Positions 9,151-36,232 of a stretch of DNA of 37,690 nt are shown piece by piece. Origin of the DNA: Candidatus Berkelbacteria bacterium (GTDB lineage: Bacteria > Patescibacteriota > UBA1384 > XYA2-FULL-43-10 > CAINNR01); contig JAPLVG010000017.1 in assembly GCA_026397235.1 (NCBI GenBank), positions 1 through 37,690 of the forward strand, written 5' to 3'. The position numbers were made by a program, and so were the translations under genes. The notes beneath the pieces were generated by a model. That model was not told where the DNA came from, did no database searches, and saw only the letters and a list, made by a program, of their open reading frames with translations. The first letter of the stretch is position 1. Every line of letters begins with the position of its first letter.

Positions 9151-9175
9151 TAATACTCGAATAATTAGTTTGGTA

Positions 9176-9206
9176 ACAAAAAAGGAATCCCAGGATTCCT
9201 TTTTTG
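9176..9206. terminator. Bidirectional intrinsic terminator between convergent operons
   Basis: AAAGGAATCC and GGATTCCTTT flank a two-base loop (CA), with an A-run on the left and a T-run on the right. It can terminate the TcmP operon on the plus strand and the terminase operon on the minus strand. Confidence 0.9.
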
Positions 9207-9244
9207 TTGATGCCATAGTTTTGGCAATCGCGACACCATCAAAA

Positions 9245-10741
9245 CTAATACCTAAGACCAGGTCTTTGGTAAATCACTTTATACATATCAGAACGAAATT
9301 TCTGCATCGACTCGTATGAGATATTGCAAGTCGATGGTGGATCATTGATAATTCCTGAAATTAGAGTTGTTAATGCATCGCACAAATCATCGTGTCCAGT
9401 TAACCCAAAATCCAGAATCTGATGTAGTAATTGCTCACAGCCTTTTTCGGGAAATACTACTTTTCCCGATCTGATGTACTCGGAAATCATCGAAAGCCGT
9501 GTTCGTTTGTCATTTTGGCCAACACTGACGCCGACGGCATTCACATTTTTTTCTTTCAATATCTGGGTCAGCCCTCTTTGTGTACCGACCTCTTCAATGT
9601 AAAATCTGTGATTGGTAACATCCTTCCATGAATTTACCATGGAGCAGATATTATCAATTGTCACAGGCAACAACATTCTTGAATTTATCGGATTTGGTAA
9701 GATGTAAATTTTCAAGTCCTTGCCATAACCCATAATTTTACAAGTCACAATTGCAGTATAGTCGGCCTTTTCTCGCTCAGAAACAGCGAGGTCGACTCCA
9801 CCAGCGTAGGCACAACTTTCGTCCCTTCGCAGTTCTGGTAGGTCTTGGTAATAATGAATCCAGTTTTTTTCGATGACCGGCTCTTGGTCATCTGCAATTA
9901 TCAATAGATATTCTCGAAGCCAGGCGAATTTATCGCCAACAGCTTTTCTTTCGGCTTCAATCGCTTCCATGTCAGGGTATTTACCCGGCCATGCGATATT
10001 GCCATCTTGGTCAAGTAGAGGATATTTTCTAAATATTCCACTCCTTGCACCTTCCTCGATCTCTCTGGTCAATCTCATAACCAGACTAGATTCATGAAGC
10101 ATATTGCCGATAAGGATTTTTTTAGTATCCCTGGTGCCTAGTGGCAAAACCTCTCCAGTAAACCATCGATAAGTGTTGTTTCTGGATTCCTCTGATTTAA
10201 CGGAGGCTAAATCCTCAATATCGTCAGCAATAATTAAATCTGGTCGGTGACTACCGTGTTTAACTCCACGGATTGATTGTTCTCGTGAAACCGCTATGAT
10301 TTTCGCATTGTGTTTCGGGATTACAAGACTGCAGGAATTCCATTCATCCATTTGACGAAATGGACCAAGGTCTTGCCTTAATAACTCGTTGGTCTCAAGC
10401 TCCTTCTTCAGGTTGGCGAAGTGCTGCTTGGCTTGTTCCTGGGTTTGGGAAATGATCACAACAAATTTGCACTTCATTTTCCCTAATATCGCCCAGATCG
10501 GGTAACTTGTGGTCATGAGCGTGATTTTTCCTGAACCCCTAAAACTGCAAATTACAGCTAGTTTTACATTTTCATCCTCGGATATCTGGAACATCTCGCG
10601 ATGAAATGGGGCGATTTCGTACTTTACATAATCATTGAAATATACATGGAAGAACCAGAGGTGAGAATCCGTTGTTACGGCAACTCTCGCTGCTTGGTTC
10701 TTAATTAACTGGTCGATAGCCACTTTGTTTTCTTTAGTCAT
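9245..10741 (-). CDS. terL: Phage terminase large subunit (TerL)
   Basis: The 498-residue protein has the two-domain layout of terminase motors. The ATPase part carries a P-loop CSFRGSGK at 65-72 and Walker B DLIIADDIED at 168-177. The RNase H-like nuclease part carries GGVDLAVSEREKADYTA around D317, YIEEVGTQ at 381-388 and GHDDLCDAL at 449-457, giving an acidic triad. TerL packages phage DNA into proheads and cuts concatemers. The residue after the P-loop Lys is Ile (ATC), where Ser or Thr is normal; this may impair ATPase activity. The ATG overlaps the small subunit stop as ATGA, and AAAGGAGATC is the ribosome site. No portal or capsid gene is nearby. Confidence 0.88.
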   Translation of the reverse strand: MTKENKVAIDQLIKNQAARVAVTTDSHLWFFHVYFNDYVKYEIAPFHREMFQISEDENVKLAVICSFRGSGKITLMTTSYPIWAILGKMKCKFVVIISQTQEQAKQHFANLKKELETNELLRQDLGPFRQMDEWNSCSLVIPKHNAKIIAVSREQSIRGVKHGSHRPDLIIADDIEDLASVKSEESRNNTYRWFTGEVLPLGTRDTKKILIGNMLHESSLVMRLTREIEEGARSGIFRKYPLLDQDGNIAWPGKYPDMEAIEAERKAVGDKFAWLREYLLIIADDQEPVIEKNWIHYYQDLPELRRDESCAYAGGVDLAVSEREKADYTAIVTCKIMGYGKDLKIYILPNPINSRMLLPVTIDNICSMVNSWKDVTNHRFYIEEVGTQRGLTQILKEKNVNAVGVSVGQNDKRTRLSMISEYIRSGKVVFPEKGCEQLLHQILDFGLTGHDDLCDALTTLISGIINDPPSTCNISYESMQKFRSDMYKVIYQRPGLRY

Positions 10742-15598: not shown

Positions 15599-16516
15599 AT
15601 GAAGTGGAAGGAAATTTTATTAAAAGCTCTCGATTATATTAAAAAATACCGTGCTCTTTGGTATTTGGGAATTTTGGCTGCGTTAACCGAAGGCGCTAGC
15701 GGCGGGAATTTTTATGGTTTTAACAATGGCAGCGGAGGTAATAATTCGACTGAAATTCAATCATCGCTAAATAAAGTTGTTGATTGGATTTCCGGTAATC
15801 GCCTAGAAGTAGGCGTTCTACTTGTTGCCTTCATTCTCATCTCATGGATAATTCTTTACATCTCCTATTCAGCGCGAGCAGGATTGATTTATTCAATTGA
15901 TCAAACGGAATTAGGTGAAAAAAAACCGGAATTTCACCAGGCGTTTCATAGCGGGCAAAAATATTTTTGGCGCTTTTTGGGTTTAACATTGCTTATCGCC
16001 TTGATGGTGTTTGCTGTTGCTTTCGTTTTAGTTGGTTTAATCGCAATTTGCATTGTTTTGGCGGTCTCGGTTAGTATTTGGTTTTTAATTGTTTTGATTC
16101 CTCTTGGACTGTTGCTAATTTTGGGAATCATTTTACTTTCCGTTTACCTGAATTGGATTTTGTTGCTGGGGTACAGAGAAATTGTAATTAAAAATAGGAA
16201 AATTATTGTAGCAATTAAGCAGGCTAGGGAGTTGGTTCATCACCATTTTTCAGATATTATTCTCGCCTGGCTGATACAGGCTGCAATTGGTATCGCTGCC
16301 GGTATTGCAACTGCTGTTGTATTATTGGTTGTCGGCGGCGCATTGTTTGTAATTGGCGCTGGAATTTATTTTGCCGGCGGATTAACCGCAGTGATTATTC
16401 ACGGCTCAATAGCGTCGGCAGCATTTATTGCGCTAACTTTACTACTTGCCGGCATTATCAACGCCTATATTTCGATATATTGGACGCTGATTTATAGGAA
16501 ATTAATAATGCAGTAA
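15599..16516 (+). CDS. Polytopic membrane protein, function unknown
   Basis: The ATG at 15599 is preferred over an upstream in-frame start because AAAGGA precedes it at the right distance. The 305-residue product has an N-terminal KYRALWYLGILAAL hydrophobic segment, a Gly/Ser/Asn-rich loop at about 38-55, and five or six further membrane spans. The layout resembles bacterial families of unknown function with a glycerophosphodiester-phosphodiesterase-like membrane domain, which are often seen in CPR genomes. A soluble charged loop around 205-220 (VIKNRKIIVAIKQARELVHH) faces one side. A repeat of the ACACAG family starts at its stop codon. Confidence 0.7.
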   Translation: MKWKEILLKALDYIKKYRALWYLGILAALTEGASGGNFYGFNNGSGGNNSTEIQSSLNKVVDWISGNRLEVGVLLVAFILISWIILYISYSARAGLIYSIDQTELGEKKPEFHQAFHSGQKYFWRFLGLTLLIALMVFAVAFVLVGLIAICIVLAVSVSIWFLIVLIPLGLLLILGIILLSVYLNWILLLGYREIVIKNRKIIVAIKQARELVHHHFSDIILAWLIQAAIGIAAGIATAVVLLVVGGALFVIGAGIYFAGGLTAVIIHGSIASAAFIALTLLLAGIINAYISIYWTLIYRKLIMQ

Positions 16517-16602
16517 GCACACGGACAACTACACAGAAGAAACACTGAAAAAACAATTCCGTGTCAACTCCATGTGGTTGTCAGTGTAGTTTCTTCAATA
16601 TA
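16512..16602. repeat. ACACAG-family repeat and imperfect palindrome after the membrane protein gene
   Basis: The first 25 bases, 16512-16536, match 33342-33366 with one difference and begin at the stop codon. GAAGAAACACTG near 16537-16550 is nearly complementary to CAGTGTAGTTTCTTC near 16580-16596, so the whole stretch can form a long imperfect hairpin just before the PilB-like gene. Confidence 0.7.
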
Positions 16603-28495: not shown

Positions 28496-28524
28496 TTGAC
28501 ATTGTGTAATATAGTATATACATT
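28496..28524 (+). promoter_or_regulatory. Promoter of the BrnT/BrnA operon
   Basis: TTGACA at 28496-28501 is 17 bases from TACATT at 28519-28524. The ATG at 28529 is close to the predicted start point, so the message may be leaderless. Confidence 0.6.
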
Positions 28525-28528
28525 ATAT

Positions 28529-28825
28529 ATGAAAGTATTCAAAAACCCACTGGCCTTCGAATGGGATGAGGGCAATAAGGATAAAAATTTTATTAAGCAC
28601 AAAGTAACAAATGAAGAGTGTGAAGAGATATTTTTTGATACAAAAAAGAAAATTGCAGATGACATTTTTCACTCGGGTAAAGAACAAAGAAGTATTATCA
28701 TCGGCAAAACGAAATTGGGAAGATACCTATTTCTAGTTTTTACTACTAGGTATAATAAAATTAGAATTATTTCAGCTAGGGATTTGGATAAAAAAGGAAG
28801 GTCTTTGTATGAAAAAGAAAATTAA
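28529..28825 (+). CDS. brnT: BrnT family toxin
   Basis: The 98-residue protein has the BrnT pattern FEWDEGNKDKNFIKHKVTNE near the N-terminus, then RSIIIGKT, RYLFLVFTTRYNKIRIISAR and the final YEKE. BrnT is a RelE-fold ribonuclease that blocks translation and is neutralised by BrnA. The start at 28529 is chosen because the in-frame ATG-like codons upstream lie within the -35 box. It overlaps the antitoxin gene by 17 bases. The pair sits between two tRNA-Ser genes. Confidence 0.88.
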   Translation: MKVFKNPLAFEWDEGNKDKNFIKHKVTNEECEEIFFDTKKKIADDIFHSGKEQRSIIIGKTKLGRYLFLVFTTRYNKIRIISARDLDKKGRSLYEKEN

Positions 28826-29090
28826 ATTACCAAATTTTCAAAACGAGGATCAGGAAAGAAATTTCTGGTCGAAACTTAATTTGGCTGACTATTTTGAATC
28901 TGCTGATTTTTTGCCTGCCGCTTTTCCCAATCTTAAGCCATCTTCTCGTTCAATCTCTCTCCGAATTCCAGAATTTATGCTTATTAGAATCAAAGAGCAA
29001 GCCAATGAATTAAATGTGCCTTATCAATCTTTGATGAAAAAATATATTGCAGAAGGGATCAGCCAAAAGTCAGAAAGAATTCGTTATTAA
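28809..29090 (+). CDS. brnA: BrnA/CopG-type antitoxin
   Basis: The 93-residue protein has a short N-terminal segment with FWSKLNLADYFE, an antitoxin hallmark, and a C-terminal ribbon-helix-helix (RSISLRIPEFMLIRIKEQAN, then PYQSLMKKYIAEGI). It should bind BrnT and repress the operon. The overlap of 17 bases with brnT gives translational coupling. It ends well short of the broken tRNA-Ser-like remnant. Confidence 0.85.
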   Translation: MKKKIKLPNFQNEDQERNFWSKLNLADYFESADFLPAAFPNLKPSSRSISLRIPEFMLIRIKEQANELNVPYQSLMKKYIAEGISQKSERIRY

Positions 29091-29554: not shown

Positions 29555-29857
29555 ATGAGCCAAGAAGAAATTATTACAAAAGTTAAAGAAGCGGTTATGT
29601 CTGATCCAAATGAGAGCTGTATCAAAAGCATCTATCTTTTTGGGTCTTTTTTGCATGGAGATGCAAAAAAAGATAGCGACGTCGATTTACTATATGAAAC
29701 ACGAAAAACAATGAGTCTGTTTGAAATTGGCGGAATGCACCACAGATTAGAGGTTAAGCTTGGTCGAAAGGTTGATTTCGTTCCAAGGGATCGTGTTATC
29801 AATCAACTTAAAGAGAAAATATTACCCGAAGCAGTGAAGGTTTATGAAAGACAATAA
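29555..29857 (+). CDS. mntA: MntA-type nucleotidyltransferase antitoxin
   Basis: The 100-residue protein is a minimal nucleotidyltransferase with GSFLHGDAKKDSDVDLL, the GSx10DxD catalytic motif. MntA neutralises HepT by adding AMP residues to it (type VII toxin-antitoxin). It overlaps the HEPN gene by 14 bases. The promoter has a consensus TATAAT about 10 bases before the ATG, so translation is probably leaderless. Confidence 0.88.
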   Translation: MSQEEIITKVKEAVMSDPNESCIKSIYLFGSFLHGDAKKDSDVDLLYETRKTMSLFEIGGMHHRLEVKLGRKVDFVPRDRVINQLKEKILPEAVKVYERQ

Positions 29858-30185
29858 AGACAAAATTCATCTAGAAAGAATACTGGAAGCTATTGACCGG
29901 ATCGAGTTTCATCTCTTGGGGTTTGAATTTGAATATTTCGAAAATGATAAAACAAGATATGACGCTGTATTAATGCAATTGGTCAATATTGGTGAGACAG
30001 TGAATCAACTTAGTGATGAATTTCAAGAAAAACACGATGATTTCCCCTGGCATGAAATTATAGGAATGAGAAACCAAATTGCCCACGGATATTTTAATAT
30101 TGACCCAAAAGAAATTTGGAAGACTGTGAAGAATGATCTACCGGAACTAAAAAAACAGATTGATTTAATTTTAGACAATTACTAA
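29844..30185 (+). CDS. hepT: HepT-type HEPN ribonuclease toxin
   Basis: The 113-residue helical protein has the HEPN active site RNQIAH and the following Y (GMRNQIAHGYF), with the DUF86/HepT arrangement MQLVNIGETVNQLSDEF. HepT cleaves RNA and is silenced by MntA, encoded by the overlapping upstream gene. Length and gene order match the known pair. Confidence 0.9.
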   Translation: MKDNKDKIHLERILEAIDRIEFHLLGFEFEYFENDKTRYDAVLMQLVNIGETVNQLSDEFQEKHDDFPWHEIIGMRNQIAHGYFNIDPKEIWKTVKNDLPELKKQIDLILDNY

Positions 30186-33341: not shown

Positions 33342-33366
33342 AGTAAGCACACGGACAATTACACAG
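33342..33366 (+). repeat. ACACAG-family repeat beginning at the ndk stop codon
   Basis: It is 25 bases long, with one difference from 16512-16536. It starts within a base of the ndk TGA and lies 15 bases before the left inverted repeat of the GxxExxY cassette. Confidence 0.75.
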
Positions 33367-33380
33367 TCTCAGTCAGCGGA

Positions 33381-33822
33381 AGTGTCTAGCCACAAATTTA
33401 TGTCACAAATTGACACAGATAAAACATTAAATGAATTATCAAAAAAATTAATAGGGTTAGTATTTGATACTTTTAACTCGCTTGGCTCAGGGTACAGCGA
33501 AAGAATTTATCAAAACATGTTCTCTGAATTTTTAAAAGATTCAGGAATAAAATATGTTCGAGAAAAATATTCACAATTAATAGTTTATGATAAGAGAATT
33601 GGTGGACACAGGGTTGATTTCCTAATTGATGATAAGATTGTTGTTGAGATGAAGTGTAGAAATGAAATTTACCCAAAAGATATTTCCCAGGTCTTAAATT
33701 ATCTGAAGGTAAATAATGTTAAACTTGGATTAATATTCTGCTTTACAATAAAGGGTGTCAAAATTAAAAGATTAGTTTATTAATTTGTGCCTATTTGTGG
33801 TATAAATTTGTGGCTAGACACT
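33381..33822. mobile_element. Candidate GxxExxY cassette bounded by a perfect 21-bp terminal inverted repeat
   Basis: The left arm at 33381-33401 and the right arm at 33802-33822 are exact reverse complements over 21 bases, 442 bp end to end. A second inner pair, CACAAATT at 33404-33411 and AATTTGTG at 33782-33789, lies just inside. Only the GxxExxY gene is contained. No target-site duplication is obvious from the flanks. An ACACAG-type repeat abuts the left side. Confidence 0.6.
33400..33783 (+). CDS. GxxExxY protein (PDDEXK-like nuclease fold)
   Basis: The ATG at 33400 is preferred over the GTG at 33382, which lies in the inverted repeat. The left arm also covers this start codon. The 127-residue protein carries the name-giving motif LGSGYSERIYQNMF (G..E..Y). 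It then has GGHRVDFLIDDKIVVEMKC, the D...ExK pattern of PD-(D/E)XK nucleases, and a final basic tail. Function is unproven; nuclease or RNA-binding roles are plausible. The gene has no visible ribosome site. It is boxed by 21-bp inverted repeats, so it may move as a small cassette. Confidence 0.85.
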   Translation: MSQIDTDKTLNELSKKLIGLVFDTFNSLGSGYSERIYQNMFSEFLKDSGIKYVREKYSQLIVYDKRIGGHRVDFLIDDKIVVEMKCRNEIYPKDISQVLNYLKVNNVKLGLIFCFTIKGVKIKRLVY

Positions 33823-33830
33823 ACAATATT

Positions 33831-35061: not shown

Positions 35062-36147
35062 ATGAATTACTTTCTAATCTTTATCATCAGCCTGATTTTG
35101 TCGGTAGTTCTCACCGGCTTTGTTCGGCGTTTTGCGCTTGGACGCGGCTTGGTCATCAAACCCAGAGAGCGCGATATTCACACCAAACCATTACCGCGAA
35201 TTGGTGGCATTGCCATTGCGTTGGCTTTTATTGTTGTCAGTTTAATATATTTTCTGATCGTCAAACCTGACTCGCATATTACCACTGGACACTGGCTGGG
35301 ATATGACAAAAAAATCGTCAGCATTTGGATTTCCGGAGTGATTATTGCTCTCGGAATGCTTTATGATGACATTTGCGGGCTAAAAGCTTACTCCAAATTT
35401 GCGATTCAGATTCTTGTGGTGGTGATAATCGCCGCTTCGGGAATCGGTTTGGATTCTCTGCCGAATCCTTTTGGCCAAGCGATCAATTTAAATAGTGTTT
35501 ATTTGCCGATAAATCTCTTCGGAACGATTTATCACTTTTCTTTCTGGTCTGATTTGCTGACACTTTTTTGGCTTGTTGGCATGATGAATGTTATCAACTT
35601 CATCGATGGTATTGATGGACTGGCTGCCGGCGTTTCAGCCATCGCCTTTTTTATTCTTTATCTTCTGAGTTTAGCGGTTTATCAGGGTCCGGTGGCTGCA
35701 ATCTCGATTATTTTGTGCGGATCGGCTGTCGGTTTTCTTTACTGGAACTTTTATCCTGCCAAAATTTTTATGGGTGACTCCGGAAGTATGTTTCTGGGTT
35801 TGTTGCTCGGCGTTTTGCCGTTAATCTCCGGTGGAAAATTGGCAACTTCATTCTTGGTTTTGGGATTCGCCATTGTTGACGGATTAATTGTTGCTGGTGC
35901 CAGAATTATTCGCGGAAAAAATCCCTTTACCACGCCGGACAAAACTCATTTGCACCATCGATTTTTGGCCGCTGGATTTTCCGTGCCGGCAACGGTCTTG
36001 TCGCTTTACGCTATCGCTGCGCTTTTCGGCTGGGTGGCGTTGCGGTCAACAACGATGAATAAAATTATCGCCTCAACAGTATTAATAGTTGTAATTGGCG
36101 TGTTAATCTTGATTTTGAATCAAATAAAAAAGATTAAGCGGAAGTAA
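35062..36147 (+). CDS. WecA/MraY-type undecaprenyl-phosphate sugar-1-phosphate transferase
   Basis: The ATG at 35062 is chosen because the frame upstream runs through a repeat. The 361-residue protein has about ten membrane helices and family motifs: GGIAIA, LYDDICGLKAYSKFAIQ, NVINFIDGIDGLAAGVSAI, FMGDSGSMFLG and the final HLHHR. It transfers a sugar phosphate (likely GlcNAc-1-P or a relative) onto undecaprenyl phosphate to start a cell-surface polymer. The HLHHR and DGIDGLAAG motifs fit WecA/TagO better than MraY. GalU elsewhere in the window supplies a related sugar nucleotide. Confidence 0.92.
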   Translation: MNYFLIFIISLILSVVLTGFVRRFALGRGLVIKPRERDIHTKPLPRIGGIAIALAFIVVSLIYFLIVKPDSHITTGHWLGYDKKIVSIWISGVIIALGMLYDDICGLKAYSKFAIQILVVVIIAASGIGLDSLPNPFGQAINLNSVYLPINLFGTIYHFSFWSDLLTLFWLVGMMNVINFIDGIDGLAAGVSAIAFFILYLLSLAVYQGPVAAISIILCGSAVGFLYWNFYPAKIFMGDSGSMFLGLLLGVLPLISGGKLATSFLVLGFAIVDGLIVAGARIIRGKNPFTTPDKTHLHHRFLAAGFSVPATVLSLYAIAALFGWVALRSTTMNKIIASTVLIVVIGVLILILNQIKKIKRK

Positions 36148-36171
36148 GTCCACAGATCTTTGACACAGATC
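36145..36171 (+). repeat. ACACAG-family repeat at the transferase stop codon
   Basis: It starts at the TAA stop and continues GTCCACAGATCTTTGACACAG. It is related to the copies at 16512, 23128 (minus strand) and 33342. Confidence 0.5.
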
Positions 36172-36232
36172 GGGAACGGATAAAAAAATCATTCGCATAT
36201 TGGATAAATTAGTAGTTTAGCAGGAGGCGAGC

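Follow-up and report, generated by a model that had tools for sequence, protein, structure and literature searches.

This locus raises the question of why one small gene should fill the space between the two halves of a perfect inverted repeat, and whether gene and repeats belong together as a unit that moves. The window, that is, the whole 37,690-nt stretch of Candidatus Berkelbacteria DNA analysed here, is contig C7 of its own genome (G000). An inverted-repeat search found that positions 33,381–33,401 (plus strand) and 33,802–33,822 (minus strand) are exact reverse complements of 21 bp, as the original prediction had stated; no other perfect inverted repeat in the window is as long (the runner-up has 16 bp), and five shuffles of the window gave 13–17 bp at most. 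With mismatches allowed, the arms extend to 43 nt matching at 86% (33,381–33,423 and 33,780–33,822), and each contains the word CACARAT roughly three times, pointing one way in the left arm and the other way in the right: CCACAAAT (33,390–33,397), CACAAATT (33,404–33,411) and CACAGAT (33,414–33,420) on the left, and ATTTGTG (33,783–33,789) and two occurrences of ATTTGTGG (33,793–33,800 and 33,806–33,813) on the right. The pair CACAAATT/AATTTGTG, previously described as a second, inner inverted repeat, is present at 33,404–33,411 and 33,782–33,789, but is not a separate feature, being one CACARAT repeat of each arm. Judging from the GWAGTG...CACTWC consensus of dispersed copies, the true ends probably lie 2 bp outside the 21-bp arms, so that the whole element would span 33,379–33,824 (plus strand). 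The gene occupies 33,400–33,783 on the plus strand (127 aa from the ATG at 33,400), and its stop codon (33,781–33,783) overlaps the extended right arm. The left arm had been said to cover the start codon, which is true of the alternative GTG at 33,382, located inside the arm, whereas the likelier start, the ATG at 33,400, straddles the inner edge of the arm. Elsewhere in the window, a 16-bp perfect inverted repeat with a 2-nt loop (9,175–9,208), just outside the ORF at 9,245–10,741, is probably a terminator.

Profile searches agreed with the earlier naming of the enclosed gene as GxxExxY, with matches to PF13366 (E = 5.7e-25, 88.4 bits against a cut-off of 22) and TIGR04256 (E = 1.6e-25, 89.7 bits against a cut-off of 35). 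The catalytic PD-(D/E)XK residues of the protein are E34, D73, E83, K85, Q97 and Y101, and these positions, with E or D at 83, were essentially invariant in an alignment of 74 proteins (E34, D73, E/D83 and Q97 each in 74/74; K85 in 73/73 ungapped), a pattern that matches the known RecB/Cas4 motif. An AlphaFold2 model (mean pLDDT 91.6) had its best PDB match in Cas4 SSO0001 (4ic1, E = 5.3e-5); this protein and lambda-type exonucleases were the nearest solved structures, followed further down by a Holliday-junction resolvase (rank 17) and a homing endonuclease (rank 23). The modelled fold and the motif lead to the prediction of an active Cas4/RecB-like PD-(D/E)XK nuclease. In a paper on RT classification, one gene was called cas4 by one pipeline and GxxExxY by another (PMC8934634).

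A check for other copies in the same genome had been suggested, and a DNA search revealed a second full copy on C20 (38,424–38,881) with 79% DNA identity and the same arms, the 21-nt cores being identical in all four arms of the two copies. Comparison of the two genes gave a dN of 0.11 with saturated dS and a third-position identity of 0.51, indicating that the protein has been kept by purifying selection. A search with a gene-less consensus yielded about ten palindromes of approximately 85–95 bp that carry the element ends without the gene, and those examined lie in intergenic gaps, close behind stop codons. The dispersed copies have sharp ends and unrelated flanks, as expected of an insertion sequence or DNA transposon, and the short palindromic ones share their ends with the larger element, as MITEs do. 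In total, nine PF13366 loci were found in this genome, namely the two with common arms and seven further ones, at least five of which have arms of other sequence; the exact 37-nt arm pattern had no match in the genome's contigs. In a search of 60 relatives, the element DNA had no full copy outside its own genome and weak matches in four others. No clean empty site was found for the window copy, since the NDK loci of the relatives examined also lack the neighbouring kinase and deaminase; the kinase had no match in G001–G003.

The window itself contains further traces of such units. An imperfect, gene-less MITE-like palindrome of CACNGA words lies at 16,505–16,600 (no strand assigned), in which 16,512–16,536 corresponds to positions 3–27 of the element query at 96%; a 25-nt piece of its left arm is found again at 33,342–33,366, beside the element, and this stretch also matches G000:C1:24,756–24,780. 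A solitary arm remnant, GTAAGTCCACAGATCTTTGACACAGAT, is located at 36,142–36,172 (plus strand) at the stop codon of an MraY-like gene; the pattern search gave one match against 0.01 expected, and the remnant is of the arm type of the element at C10:43,079 (L059). Among other features of the window, a nucleotidyltransferase/HepT-like pair (29,555–30,185; PF01909 and PF01934) is a probable toxin–antitoxin module, and the region 28,496–29,090 contains a weak, below-cut-off match to the BrnA antitoxin (28,809–29,090) preceded by a small ORF that is BrnT-like by eye (28,496–28,825).

To place the locus in a wider context, GxxExxY loci were sampled from genomes or plasmids of the same phylum and of Chloroflexi, Verrucomicrobia, Planctomycetota, Bacteroidota, Alphaproteobacteria, Gemmatimonadota and Spirochaetota, most of the genomes being MAGs, and one inverted-repeat scoring procedure was applied both to the GxxExxY genes and, as controls, to the remaining ORFs examined at these loci. 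Flanking inverted repeats with a score of at least 12 were found at 59 of 85 GxxExxY loci and at 4 of 118 neighbour ORFs, a 20-fold excess, and those with a score of at least 20 at 30/85 and 0/118, respectively; flanking arms, which the original prediction had proposed to look for at other GxxExxY loci, do recur. The remaining 26 of the 85 loci, at which no arms were detectable, may reflect decay, truncation or other biology. Arm similarity tracked protein identity (Mantel rho 0.43, p = 0.0005, reached by 0/2000 permutations) in a comparison that controls host kinship only partly and uses the outer flanks as the matched control; for these flanks, just outside the arms, rho was -0.00. The arms are passed on together with the nuclease, as a unit. 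A phage search gave no match and a plasmid search only eight records, so that phage or conjugative spread is not an obvious main route. Among individual loci, an armed GxxExxY gene lies between fabD and fabG on a Sphingomonas parapaucimobilis plasmid (L140), and the reading frame of another armed element (L082, G160:C12) continues into a prepilin-like gene (GFTLMEIIV...).

Analysis of an Anaerolinea thermophila MAG (G196) revealed a burst of copies, with 73 element ends compared with none for the reversed control pattern. Alignments of these copies end at the same two edges, their flanks are unrelated, and many contigs break within a copy. Defective forms share an internal deletion of about 190 bp or an 18-bp deletion, each at different sites; the copies have thus dispersed into unrelated flanks, and defective copies, like the gene-less ones described above, have spread. 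Such recurrent identical lesions would look like the pattern expected of defective copies mobilised in trans. Of the 11 complete copies, three are flanked by an 8-bp duplication, exact in two cases and 7/8 in the third, against a chance expectation of about 0.004 for a duplication of at least 7/8 among 11 copies; most complete copies in this MAG lack one. An exact 8-bp duplication also occurs at L199, which has a variant left end, and no target-site duplication was detectable in other genomes (n = 50). Duplications of this length are usual for several IS families, and an unrelated transposase may have been behind the burst. More generally, an ordinary DDE transposase might move arm-bounded, MITE-like units in trans, with the nuclease as cargo, for example for defence or addiction; gene-less copies do move without a protein of their own, and the lack of target duplications outside the burst makes different drivers conceivable. 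However, across phyla the same gene family is enclosed by many kinds of arm with unrelated sequences, and arm type follows protein relatedness, whereas a passenger would not be expected to be the sole element that stays constant; in the neighbourhoods read by eye, no gene for a transposase stood out. We therefore regard a transposase acting in trans as an unlikely explanation, although the strongest of the alternatives.

An empty site, lacking at the window copy, was found at lepA. In three genomes (G173, G121 and G207; L207–L209), representing three genera of one CPR family, this gene for elongation factor 4 contains a whole GxxExxY element, in frame and without a stop codon, with a net gain of 441, 420 and 417 nt, respectively. 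The insertion point is a turn (VRM-EW...-Y[IV]LNLIDTPGHV), at which ten other family members have four residues. The element is thus inserted into lepA precisely and in frame. The arms of the three insertions are decayed, and the three may stem from one event. These empty sites and the burst copies already contradict the view of an ordinary, immobile gene around which regulatory or terminator hairpins or REP-like repeats have accumulated. Hairpin formation and the position of copies in short intergenic gaps directly behind stop codons would suit such a gene, but symmetric arms on both sides, co-inherited with the protein and in such excess over neighbour genes, would not, and we consider it very improbable.

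Whether the arms act in RNA or in DNA was considered next to the behaviour of 23S rRNA intervening sequences (IVSs), to which the locus had originally been likened. The analogy holds for the layout, a single small ORF in about 450 bp with complementary ends that form a stem around it, and fails for the location: no rRNA was found at any of 40 loci tested or near the window copy. The Coxiella IVS, of 428–444 nt with a 28-bp stem and RNase III processing (PMC4990558), is similar in layout and size. If the arms paired in the transcript and RNase III removed the element, insertion would be harmless, and elements do lie within transcription units, such as that of fabD and fabG. The predicted RNA folds surpassed every shuffled sequence in stability, with z = -5.6 for the complete element and z between -5.1 and -6.8 for the MITEs, but mismatches within arms showed no preference for G.U over A.C (64 vs 56, p = 0.52), unlike what selection for RNA pairing would produce. 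Furthermore, three genera have preserved an open, in-frame element in lepA, as would be expected if it is translated rather than excised, and insertion would still require a DNA step; removal at the RNA level is accordingly improbable as the main explanation, less so than the immobile gene, since layout and stable folds lend it a measure of support. No Rfam intron surrounded the ORF at the window copy or at the 40 loci, as it would in a homing-endonuclease intron. In MITE alignments, the words were kept and the linkers varied, a conservation that would fit protein-binding sites and a hairpin equally well.

Taken together, we favour, with a probability of roughly 0.68, a mobile DNA element, about 450 bp in size and composed of arms and GxxExxY nuclease, in which the nuclease probably recognises the arms, drives movement and gives rise to MITEs. 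The reading of the locus as a cassette, and its comparison with miniature transposons, are supported by the dispersed and gene-less copies, the recurring arms and the empty site. In the proposed mechanism, a Cas4/RecB-like nuclease gene lies between inverted arms in which a degenerate 7–8-nt word is repeated a few times; the nuclease would most likely bind the repeated words, or a hairpin or cruciform formed by them, and its cut at the arms would most likely allow the element to excise or be copied. By working in trans on copies that have lost the gene or an internal part, it would generate MITEs, and insertions are tolerated between genes right behind stop codons and occasionally in frame within a gene. 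That the nuclease itself recognises the arms, cuts and drives movement is the simplest inference.

The control ORFs pointed to a second family, since three of the four with a score of at least 12 were four-helix-bundle-like by sequence and arm-bounded themselves. A direct test of this family (PF05635), which is present in 70 of 116 genomes of the phylum, revealed arms at 25 of 31 loci. Arm-bounded loci with 7-nt repeats include L269–L298 and, in the window's own genome, L068 (G000:C13:8641). These arms have a strong 7-nt period (0.68 vs 0.30 in shuffles), a descriptive value because the list was drawn from high-scoring loci, whereas GxxExxY arms show a weak peak at 9 nt (0.38 vs 0.29). The suggested link between the cassette and four-helix-bundle genes consequently stands in general but not within the window: the decayed gene of this type reported there was not found, and PF05635 matches in the genome were confined to C13 and C23. 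We tentatively suggest, at somewhat less than even odds, that GxxExxY is the engine of an unrecognised class of transposable element, with a Cas4/RecB-like nuclease, no transposase and an element-specific word co-evolving with the protein, and that four-helix-bundle (IVS-type) elements form a second class whose arms follow a 7-nt grammar. If so, the two classes together would account for many of the CACAGAT, CACGAAG and ACGAAT repeats and heptamer repeats scattered in bacterial genomes.

A search of the open-access literature found no description of such elements and nothing on the arm strings, and in open-access full texts essentially no paper was about PF13366 or TIGR04256. In a survey of CPR rRNA insertions, the main text names LAGLIDADG, GIY-YIG and IVP, with no PD-(D/E)XK there (PMC11270868), and four-helix and S23 genes go unmentioned in a paper on Beggiatoaceae heptamers (PMC4679880). 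PF13366/TIGR04256 proteins occur in many phyla, often several per genome, and arms, gene-less copies and precise insertions turn a widespread 'hypothetical' protein into part of a testable mobile element; the protein seems to be part of a type of selfish DNA for which no description was found. The element offers a source for common intergenic palindromes, would tie the Cas4 nuclease fold to transposition, and gives the old puzzle of IVS movement a relative abundant outside rRNA.

Comparison with known systems revealed partial likeness to each. Like the 23S rRNA IVS with its S23/IVP four-helix-bundle ORF, the element is sporadic, measures about 430–450 bp and has complementary ends with little between them but a single small ORF, but it lies outside rRNA, encodes a nuclease in place of a four-helix bundle and has dispersed gene-less copies; its words are spaced by about 9–11 nt, compared with the strict 7-nt period of the four-helix-bundle arms analysed here. 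With insertion sequences and their MITE derivatives it shares terminal inverted repeats, a single gene, dispersed, internally deleted and gene-less copies, and an 8-bp duplication at some; in contrast, it has no DDE, Y1 or serine transposase, its sole gene being a PD-(D/E)XK nuclease, its arms are tandem degenerate words, and target duplication is mostly absent. As in REP/RAYT systems, palindromes flank a gene and also occur alone across the genome; however, RAYT is a Y1 HUH transposase, a domain that profile searches did not find in the GxxExxY protein, and here the gene is enclosed by arms of about 40 nt on either side. Rickettsia palindromic elements are likewise palindromic selfish DNA in frame within protein genes, and to our knowledge have no gene of their own, whereas in lepA the nuclease itself is carried in frame. 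Finally, Cas4/RecB-type PD-(D/E)XK nucleases share the fold and the motif G..E / D / E.K / Q...Y with the GxxExxY protein, which differs in being minimal, at 127 aa too short for the extra iron–sulphur region of Cas4, and in being encoded within its own inverted arms.
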